Shown here: in pieces, positions 33,666-36,463 of the stretch | Layout of the letters: every line of letters starts with the position of its first letter | Position numbering within the stretch: position 1 is the stretch's first letter | Virus record (IMG/VR): IMGVR_UViG_3300045996_001092 | Span: 1-38,967 of that record | DNA length: 38,967 bases | Source: a virus | Reading direction: 5' to 3' (one strand) | The notes under the pieces: model-generated | Told to the model about the DNA's origin: nothing | Seen by the model: the letters and a program-made list of their open reading frames with translations, nothing else | Database searches by the model: none | Position numbers and translations under genes: made by a program

Positions 33666-34166
33666 TCAACCCATGAGCCCGGCAAACGGGTTGCCCTGCG
33701 TCTCTTTCCACCGCTTGTTTAGCTTGATGGCGGAAACAGTCGTGGGCGGGATGTTCAGTTCCCGGGCCAGCGCAGCCCCTGTCTTGTCGCTAGACCGGAT
33801 GTAGCGGGCAATGCTCATATCCCTCTCGGAGCGCTCCCGAGACTTCAGCCCTGCGATGTGCCGACGCATCTGCGTGTCTGCCCGCTTGGCGGTCCTGCGG
33901 GTTGCCTCGCCCCGGGTAATCAGCTCCAGGTGGTCAGGGTTCAGGCACAGGCGGTTGCCGCACTTCGCCGTGACGTACCGGCCCTTCGGGATCTCGCCCT
34001 TAGCCAGAGTCCACACCTCGCGGCGAGGCTGGACGGTCTGCGTCGAGCGCGTGTCGCCCTTGCGGATGGTCAGCTTTGGCCTGCCTCCGCTGTCTTGGGA
34101 TTGCGTCCACAGCATGCAGTCGCAGTCCTCGGCGCACCGTTCCATGAACCATTCCAGAGTACGCAC
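33666..34166 (-). CDS. HNH-like nuclease with C-terminal HTH
   Basis: A 166-residue protein from GTG 34166. Two cysteines in CAEDCDCMLW, then the zinc-His type nuclease core AKCGNRLCLNPDHLELITRG, as in phage HNH proteins (C-G-N-x-x-C-x-N-P-x-H). The end is a helix-turn-helix (TGAALARELNIPPTTVSAIK). Probable homing-type endonuclease. Its start overlaps the stop of the next upstream gene by one base. Confidence 0.8.
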   Translation of the reverse strand: MRTLEWFMERCAEDCDCMLWTQSQDSGGRPKLTIRKGDTRSTQTVQPRREVWTLAKGEIPKGRYVTAKCGNRLCLNPDHLELITRGEATRRTAKRADTQMRRHIAGLKSRERSERDMSIARYIRSSDKTGAALARELNIPPTTVSAIKLNKRWKETQGNPFAGLMG

Positions 34167-35615: not shown

Positions 35616-36302
35616 TCATGCGGCCTCCTTAAACTTGAGCAAGGGCGACAAGTGCCGCGACTGCCACGCTTGGAACTTGTCCGTTGCCAGCGGCTGCAAT
35701 GCGGTCCATCCGATAGGCCAATCCATTAACCACTCCTGCGCTTCCGGGGTCACTTGACCAAATACCGTCCTCCAGGCCCTGCATGAAGGATGCTTTTGCA
35801 TGGAAGGAGCGCAGTAGTTCCCTTGGGTCGTCGGCGTATGCAAGTAGCCAATGCCGCTCCCGAATGTGGTCGCCACCCAGGTCTTTCGCGGCAAGGGAAA
35901 TCGCTCGGGTTTCGTAACCCATCTCGTCGAGGTCATCTGCTGCGCGGTCAATTGCGCGTCTTTGGACGTTCTCGGCAAAGACGTACCGGGGAGCGACATC
36001 TGCCACGATCCGTCTTTGCTCCGGCCAGAGATCGTCCGCAGTGTTTTTCCCCGCAGCCGCAGAGGAATAGGCTTGACAGGGAAACCCGCCAGATACGATG
36101 TCAACCACCCCTCGCCAGGGCTCTCCGTTGAAGGTGCGGATGTCGCTCCAGATGGGGAAGGGCTCAAGGATGCCGTCATCCTGACGCCGCTCAAGGATGC
36201 GGGCTGGATAGTCGCTCCATTCAATGGCGCAGACTGTTCGCCACCCAAGGAGCTTTGATGCGAGCAAGCCGCCCCCAGCGCCCGCGAAACACGCCAGTTC
36301 AT
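35616..36302 (-). CDS. Overprinted frame on the methyltransferase gene
   Basis: A 228-codon open frame, shifted against the methyltransferase, starting four bases after it and ending 13 bases beyond it. Its N-terminal two thirds are Ser/Pro/Arg-rich and may be just a high-GC shadow. Its end is not random: LHTPTTQGNYCAPSMQKHPS, then GQVTPEAQEWLMDWPIGWTA and LQPLATDKFQAWQSRH match a motif set (EWLMGWPIGWT) that I know from C-terminal parts of many phage proteins, often called methyltransferase. So this region may be coded in both frames. Start unknown; a shorter product from an internal start is likely if it is made. Confidence 0.45.
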   Translation of the reverse strand: MNWRVSRALGAACSHQSSLGGEQSAPLNGATIQPASLSGVRMTASLSPSPSGATSAPSTESPGEGWLTSYLAGFPVKPIPLRLRGKTLRTISGRSKDGSWQMSLPGTSLPRTSKDAQLTAQQMTSTRWVTKPERFPLPRKTWVATTFGSGIGYLHTPTTQGNYCAPSMQKHPSCRAWRTVFGQVTPEAQEWLMDWPIGWTALQPLATDKFQAWQSRHLSPLLKFKEAA

Positions 36303-36306
36303 TCAT
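35629..36306 (-). CDS. dcm: C5 cytosine DNA methyltransferase
   Basis: A compact 225-residue enzyme. Motif I is FAGAGGG (7-13), motif IV GGFPCQ with the nucleophile Cys77, motif VI ENV (112-114), motif VIII HIRERHW (148-153), and motif X GNGQVP (208-212). The target recognition region between VIII and X is only about 45 residues, much shorter than in host enzymes. It methylates cytosine in a short site, probably to guard phage DNA from host restriction. Start overlaps the stop of the gene upstream (ATGAATGA). A second open frame covers nearly the whole gene. Confidence 0.88.
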   Translation of the reverse strand: MNELACFAGAGGGLLASKLLGWRTVCAIEWSDYPARILERRQDDGILEPFPIWSDIRTFNGEPWRGVVDIVSGGFPCQAYSSAAAGKNTADDLWPEQRRIVADVAPRYVFAENVQRRAIDRAADDLDEMGYETRAISLAAKDLGGDHIRERHWLLAYADDPRELLRSFHAKASFMQGLEDGIWSSDPGSAGVVNGLAYRMDRIAAAGNGQVPSVAVAALVALAQV

Positions 36307-36463
36307 CCCTCATCTGCTTAACCGGCAGGCGCATTGCTGCAAACTCGCGCAGCCGCTCCTCCAATTTGCTGACCAACCACGCATTGCGGGCTGCTTCGTC
36401 TTCGGGGTAGTGCCTCTCGCTCAAGGCGCGAAGCGTCTCGATCTGCTGGTTGATGGGGGTCAT
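36299..36463 (-). CDS. Small helical protein, 54 aa
   Basis: Starts at ATG 36463, with CAGGAGCATCGC upstream and four bases into the previous gene's end; its stop overlaps the methyltransferase start. Two helices: NQQIETLRALSERHYPEDEA and LVSKLEERLREFAAMRL. No family recognised, but coupling on both sides and a good ribosome site support it. Confidence 0.6.
   Translation of the reverse strand: MTPINQQIETLRALSERHYPEDEAARNAWLVSKLEERLREFAAMRLPVKQMRDE

Follow-up and report, generated by a model that had tools for sequence, protein, structure and literature searches.

M.EcoHK31I, which recognizes YGGCCR, and M.AquI, which recognizes CYCGRG, are the closest described parallels to the locus considered here; another two-subunit C5-methyltransferase, BsuMI of B. 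subtilis (YdiO/YdiP), is encoded by separate genes. Lee, Kam and Shaw are said to have described in 1995 that the small polypeptide of M.EcoHK31I is encoded within the large one in another reading frame, and to our knowledge an overlapping two-frame layout of a methyltransferase is known from one or two enzymes only. M.AquI and M.EcoHK31I each consist of two polypeptides. In M.EcoHK31I the large polypeptide contains motifs I-VIII, motif X and the predicted target-recognition domain, and the small one only motif IX (PMC3404938). The split of M.AquI follows the sequence order, with motifs I-VIII apart from IX-X.

The gene that we compare with these enzymes lies in a 38,967-nt stretch of viral DNA (IMG/VR record IMGVR_UViG_3300045996_001092, positions 1 to 38,967), referred to as the window. 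Its methyltransferase frame, alpha (225 codons, positions 35629-36306, minus strand), has motifs I-VIII and X without motif IX, as has the large polypeptide of M.EcoHK31I, and motif IX would reside on a second polypeptide, beta (228 codons, positions 35616-36302, minus strand), which is read in the +1 frame and was delineated by ORF reading, family matches and selection tests. That two long frames are open together at this place had been stated in an earlier reading made from the letters of the window (the sequence-only reading), and it is indeed the case. beta is nested in the large gene in another frame, as the small polypeptide of M.EcoHK31I reportedly is. The likeness in motif IX holds at the level of the pattern, with a weak score to the canonical motif IX, and by this division of motifs we place the window gene with the M.EcoHK31I kind. 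It differs from M.EcoHK31I in the start of beta 4 nt after that of alpha with a full-length overlap, in a motif IX that is superposed directly on motif X, and in being a phage gene in whose scanned neighbourhood no restriction enzyme was seen; moreover, the target-recognition domain of M.EcoHK31I is predicted on the large subunit, whereas neither frame of the window gene is well conserved in that region. M.AquI is likewise a C5-methyltransferase in two polypeptides, but its small subunit contains IX and X together, whereas motif X of the window gene belongs to the alpha frame. A different situation is encountered in the ShiLan element, where a mobile HNH endonuclease is inserted in an actinobacteriophage methylase, while the second frame of the window would be part of the methyltransferase itself. 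Our reading, to which we assign a probability of roughly 0.83, is that a single DNA cytosine-5 methyltransferase is encoded here in the form of two polypeptides in overlapping frames, with beta predicted to supply motif IX. What appears to be new is the breadth of the arrangement, in phages and several bacterial phyla, the shared start with full-length overlap, and a motif IX that is superposed on motif X.

alpha is a C5-methyltransferase lacking motif IX. It matches PHROG 363 (E 1e-47) and Pfam PF00145 (E 4e-19), the latter only over profile positions 6-165 of 324, while E. coli Dcm covers positions 1-320; with a match ending at position 165/324, alpha does not possess the complete motif set of a one-chain enzyme. 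The AdoMet-binding motif I (FAGAGGG, 36268-36288, from the translation and conserved columns) and the catalytic PCQ of motif IV (GGFPCQ with the catalytic Cys, 36073-36090, GGFPC being invariant) are present with their key positions conserved. They are accompanied, all on the minus strand, by motif VI (ENV, 35965-35973, with invariant E112 and N113), the motif VIII region (HIRERHWLLAYA, 35833-35868, with invariant R151 and W153) and motif X (GNGQVP, alpha residues 207-212, 35671-35688, with an identity of 0.91-0.94 in alpha vs 0.45-0.47 in beta). A structure model of alpha (pLDDT 72) matches the catalytic-domain fold of M.HaeIII and M.HhaI over about 170 residues. Motif IX is not in the alpha frame and was found in the +1 frame in nearly all loci surveyed.

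An open +1 frame (frame B) could in principle be no more than the passive shadow of a conserved alpha with biased codon use. The GC content is ~0.59, and even in shuffled sequences stops are far less frequent in the +1 frame than in the third one (frame C). In the window alone, frame B stayed open in 1.9% of 20,000 synonymous shuffles preserving alpha (P=0.019), and thus the single sequence is only suggestive. The pooled collection of 311 relatives includes loci selected through beta, and for this reason the main tests were restricted to loci found through alpha, 56 from an alpha search of viral contigs, 80 more from a profile search and 80 from bacterial genomes. N-terminal patterns alone were used in two of these three scans; the third, which gave the 56 viral loci, had one pattern over the motif. 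When the alpha protein was kept and synonymous codons were shuffled within each gene, the alpha-selected viral loci contained a single frame-B stop compared to 153.6 ± 7.3 expected (34 loci), and a second alpha-selected viral set none at all vs 274.5 ± 10.3 (63 loci). The close bacterial loci had 1 vs 94.6 (23 loci) and the distant bacterial loci 1 vs 51 (51 loci). Stops in the third frame of the same four sets numbered 520, 928, 320 and 396, at or above expectation except in the GC-rich distant set. When codons were instead drawn from the genes nearby, the picture was similar, with 2 frame-B stops vs 376 expected in 53 loci collected earlier, including 8 that had come from beta searches. The sequence-only reading had argued that a shifted frame riddled with stops in close relatives would speak against a second protein; the relatives are practically free of them.

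To control for shared ancestry, independent sequence pairs were taken and, within each, codon pairs were permuted among the columns that show the same pair of amino acids. Frame B gave z=20.0 for pairs 40-55% identical and z=26.7 for pairs 55-92% identical, with the signal peaking at alpha codons 181-210, while the corresponding values for frame C were 0.5 and -0.1. Constraint on both frames across relatives, which the sequence-only reading had suggested to measure, is thus clearly detectable. In E. coli dcm, which encodes a single-chain enzyme, the +1 frame contains 14 stops, and an open +1 frame is therefore not general to such genes. Dual coding with both frames under selection is strongly supported by these data. 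A shadow of alpha is scarcely conceivable when shuffles that preserve alpha and its codon use predict hundreds of stops and 0-2 are seen, when alpha changes its amino acids at positions where beta is fixed, and when dcm does not behave in this way. Chance and codon bias are ruled out as the source of the open frame by the two synonymous-shuffle nulls together with the permutation that keeps relatedness.

The two frames begin at a double start, ATGAATG (36300-36306, minus strand), with the alpha ATG at 36306-36304 and the beta ATG at 36302-36300, inside alpha, 4 nt after its ATG and in the +1 frame. A GAGGG at 36307-36311 (minus strand), directly adjoining the alpha ATG (0 nt) and 4 nt away from that of beta, is a possible shared ribosome-binding site; in relatives this site is usually 4-5 nt away from the alpha start, which places it 8-9 nt from the beta start. 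An ATG stands at +4 in 114 of 129 viral loci and in 22 of the 24 close bacterial ones, and Rhodobacterales have ATGCATG with the same start offset. The end of beta is close to the stop of alpha, in most cases no more than 20 nt away on either side. Over the first 157 codons, 135 distinct alpha-chosen loci contain 1 frame-B stop vs 436 expected from synonymous shuffles, which argues that beta is read from near the +4 ATG and not merely from an internal start or after a late frameshift. In distant pairs the sequence of these 157 codons of beta is mostly not conserved beyond expectation. A leader that is open yet unconserved fits ribosomes which traverse it from the +4 start to reach a functional C-terminus, and it counts against a start just before motif IX as well as against a late frameshift.

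These observations bear on the idea of programmed frameshifting, in which ribosomes would translate motifs I-VIII in the alpha frame, move to frame B for motif IX and return for motif X, yielding one canonical chain. The order of motifs along the DNA is canonical and the two frames jointly cover all of them, as this mechanism would predict. However, it would require two shifts, and it has no need for a frame B that is open across the whole catalytic part, the region with the 1 vs 436 stops. No obvious conserved slippery heptamer was seen by eye in the codon table of the aligned loci. We consider frameshifting very improbable and retain two polypeptides started 4 nt apart.

What beta might contribute is indicated by its C-terminus. 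The last 36 residues match PHROGs 26627 (E 7e-10) and 35493 (E 8e-9), in agreement with the earlier proposal that the shifted frame belongs to a conserved family and at odds with the outcome named there as counting against it, a C-terminus with no family match. A Pfam search of beta gave no match above the cut-off. The conserved core, LNPxxxEWLMGWPxGWT, has the spacing of motif IX of C5-methyltransferases, LxPx5LMG[FWY]P (RLTPRECARLMGFP); in the window it reads TPEAQEWLMDWPIGWT (beta residues 185-200, 35703-35750, minus strand), as judged by this pattern and by alignments with gp77 of mycobacteriophage Eagle and with canonical motif IX, and it coincides with the strongest selection signal of frame B. 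A hidden Markov comparison (hhalign) of the full beta profile with E. coli Dcm did not match motif IX, and a motif-only profile, made from 228 distinct beta cores, was therefore run on five single-frame C5-methyltransferases. Its best match lay exactly on motif IX in four of the five, with weak scores (best domain E 0.027, in a handful of proteins) and with three of the targets being close Dcm-type relatives. hhalign of the beta profile to Eagle gp77 aligned the motif segment alone (E 8.6e-5); gp77 contains FSEWMMGWEEGW, the same motif, followed downstream in the same frame by motif X. By its sequence pattern, beta thus carries a motif IX-like segment. With I-VIII and X in alpha and IX in beta, the full motif set would be present once across both polypeptides.

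The sequence-only reading had regarded WLMGWPIGWT as a separate module born by overprinting on motif X. In a broader form, beta would be an unrelated protein, for instance an anti-restriction or regulatory peptide, that arose de novo over the methyltransferase. Full-length dual coding is real, and beta indeed has no Pfam match, both of which such a protein would lead one to expect. Yet the beta core shows the motif IX pattern while alpha has no motif IX, it is placed where motif IX belongs relative to motif X, and in Eagle gp77 the same motif precedes motif X in frame. An independent protein is therefore very unlikely in our view. The pattern and the in-frame succession of IX and X in Eagle suggest a simpler reading, in which the module would be the enzyme's own motif IX placed in the other frame, and pattern and profile position leave a separate module unsupported. 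The structure of beta adds little. Its model is poor (mean pLDDT 51), with residues ~160-222 helical at fair confidence and residues 1-160 disordered; a fold search of the model against the PDB was without any match, as was a search of the beta profile against PDB sequences. The model is consistent with a leader followed by a small C-terminal element in need of a partner, but for the reasons just given we place little weight on it.

How constraint is shared between the frames could be followed along the gene in distant pairs. Up to codon 157 alpha is the better conserved frame; between codons 158 and 185 both are poorly conserved, beta being slightly the more conserved of the two. At codons 191-200 (EWLMGWPxGW) the identity of beta reaches 0.72 vs 0.43 for alpha, and the third bases of alpha codons are 83% identical here compared to 30-56% over most of the gene. 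At codons 207-212 (GNGQVP) the values are 0.91 for alpha and 0.45 for beta: alpha is fixed, while beta alternates between E/A/G/V, T/M, D/G/A/V and K/R. Individual columns show the same. At the Trp of GWT, 133 of 135 loci have Trp in beta; alpha has V, M or L at this position, always with xTG codons, and where it has valine the codon is GTG in 81 of 81 cases vs 33% gene-wide. The beta Met column is Met in 132 of 135 loci, with D, N, H or Y in alpha, whose codons all but once end in AT. Constraint is thus handed over from beta (motif IX) to alpha (motif X) within about 15 codons. The claim of overprinting holds in the sense that two proteins occupy one stretch and the shifted-frame motif shares its bases with motif X; the residue registration quoted with it was off by one codon, since alpha N194 lies opposite beta M193 of EWLMDWP.

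Assuming that both starts are used, the enzyme could work as follows. Ribosomes initiating at the first ATG would produce alpha, with the AdoMet-binding and catalytic domain (I-VIII) and a C-terminal motif X helix. Initiation 4 nt further on, at the second ATG and in the +1 frame, would give beta, the first ~160 residues of which would be a weakly constrained leader. Motif IX would lie in its C-terminal ~60 residues, which in longer relatives probably also include the target-recognition region. alpha and beta might then assemble, motif IX of beta completing the small domain as reported for M.EcoHK31I. The likely role would be methylation of phage DNA, e.g., against host restriction. Target recognition is perhaps supplied by beta. 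We tentatively put forward, at somewhat less than even odds, that the locus represents an overlooked large class of phage and prophage C5-methyltransferases with starts 4 nt apart, two subunits that share the entire length of the gene in two frames, catalysis and motif X in frame A, and target recognition and motif IX in frame B. If recognition does reside in frame B, DNA specificity would evolve in a hidden frame.

The supposition that the phage of the window is special in having kept both frames is not supported. Motif IX in the +1 frame, over or beside motif X in frame 0, was found in 295 of 311 loci, a pooled count that includes beta-selected loci, and likewise in the alpha-chosen loci. 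The layout occurs in phages of Pseudomonas, Klebsiella, Salmonella, Acinetobacter and Stenotrophomonas, and in genomes or prophages of Enterobacteriaceae, Pseudomonas, Nitrosomonas, Thiobacillus, Myxococcus, many Rhodobacterales, Verrucomicrobiota and Lentisphaeria. Same-strand overlaps of 225-350 codons that span almost the whole gene and are conserved in phages and several bacterial phyla are rare, and proof of them is difficult to obtain; here the sequence by itself suffices to prove dual coding, the hidden frame can be given a likely function, and the locus offers a clean natural case for studying how two frames share constraint.

Database records mostly annotate one of the two frames. It is alpha in phages Marin, PS-1 and S9-5; in phages Shamal (Pseudomonas) and phPA-G and in P. 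aeruginosa plasmids beta alone is annotated, as a hypothetical protein, and the catalytic subunit is thus missing there. With half of the enzyme omitted, predicted methylomes and cloned single-frame constructs may fail. Four PHROGs, 1008 (listed as DNA methyltransferase) and 26627, 35493 and 27243 (listed with unknown function), correspond in many of their members to the beta frame and can be re-described accordingly. One beta-like match, in Paenibacillus phage HB10c2, bears the annotation of a YdiP-like BsuMI subunit. The hypothetical protein annotated in Vibrio phage 1.291.O (L317:1142-1840) is the beta frame, and another open frame, unannotated, is presumably the catalytic alpha.

Several variant layouts were encountered. 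In Paenibacillus phage Genki both nested frames have been deposited as DNA cytosine methyltransferase (L147:1299-2354 and 1501-2205); motif IX (frame B) lies upstream of motif X (frame A) without being superposed, and beta starts ~200 nt inside alpha. A Lacticaseibacillus phage and a Bacteroides phage have related layouts with early frame-B stops. From these three phages the +4 start, and perhaps the superposition, would seem to be later refinements. The Eagle genes gp78/gp77 (L146:1221-2316) are split sequentially, with I-VIII in gp78 and IX and X in gp77 (+1 frame), and look like the M.AquI type; the gp77-like frame opens early enough for its start to overlap motif VIII of gp78. In Mycobacterium phage Llama the alpha frame is divided into two annotated ORFs, gp74/gp75, between motifs VI and VIII (L148:1432-2191), and the +1 frame retains WLMGFPPNWTD over motif X. 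The alpha frame of the E. coli PCP07014 prophage (L339:1201-1962) has an internal stop around codon 122 and is a pseudogene in RefSeq. At one further locus (L064:2501-2796) a deletion has brought the motif IX segment (...FPIWSDVVGGPLNPTWVEWLMGWPLGW) into frame with the N-terminus of alpha and joined the two; this is a natural remnant of a dual-coding gene.

The surroundings of the window gene are lambda-like: replication genes resembling O and P are located upstream, and RusA-like, NinB and HNH genes follow downstream. In the absence of a restriction enzyme among the scanned neighbours, an orphan methyltransferase with a protective function would be the likely role. The HNH endonuclease gene (33666-34166, minus strand; PHROG 1872, E 2e-19) lies near Ref-like nuclease, NinB and RusA-like genes and possibly encodes a homing-type endonuclease.
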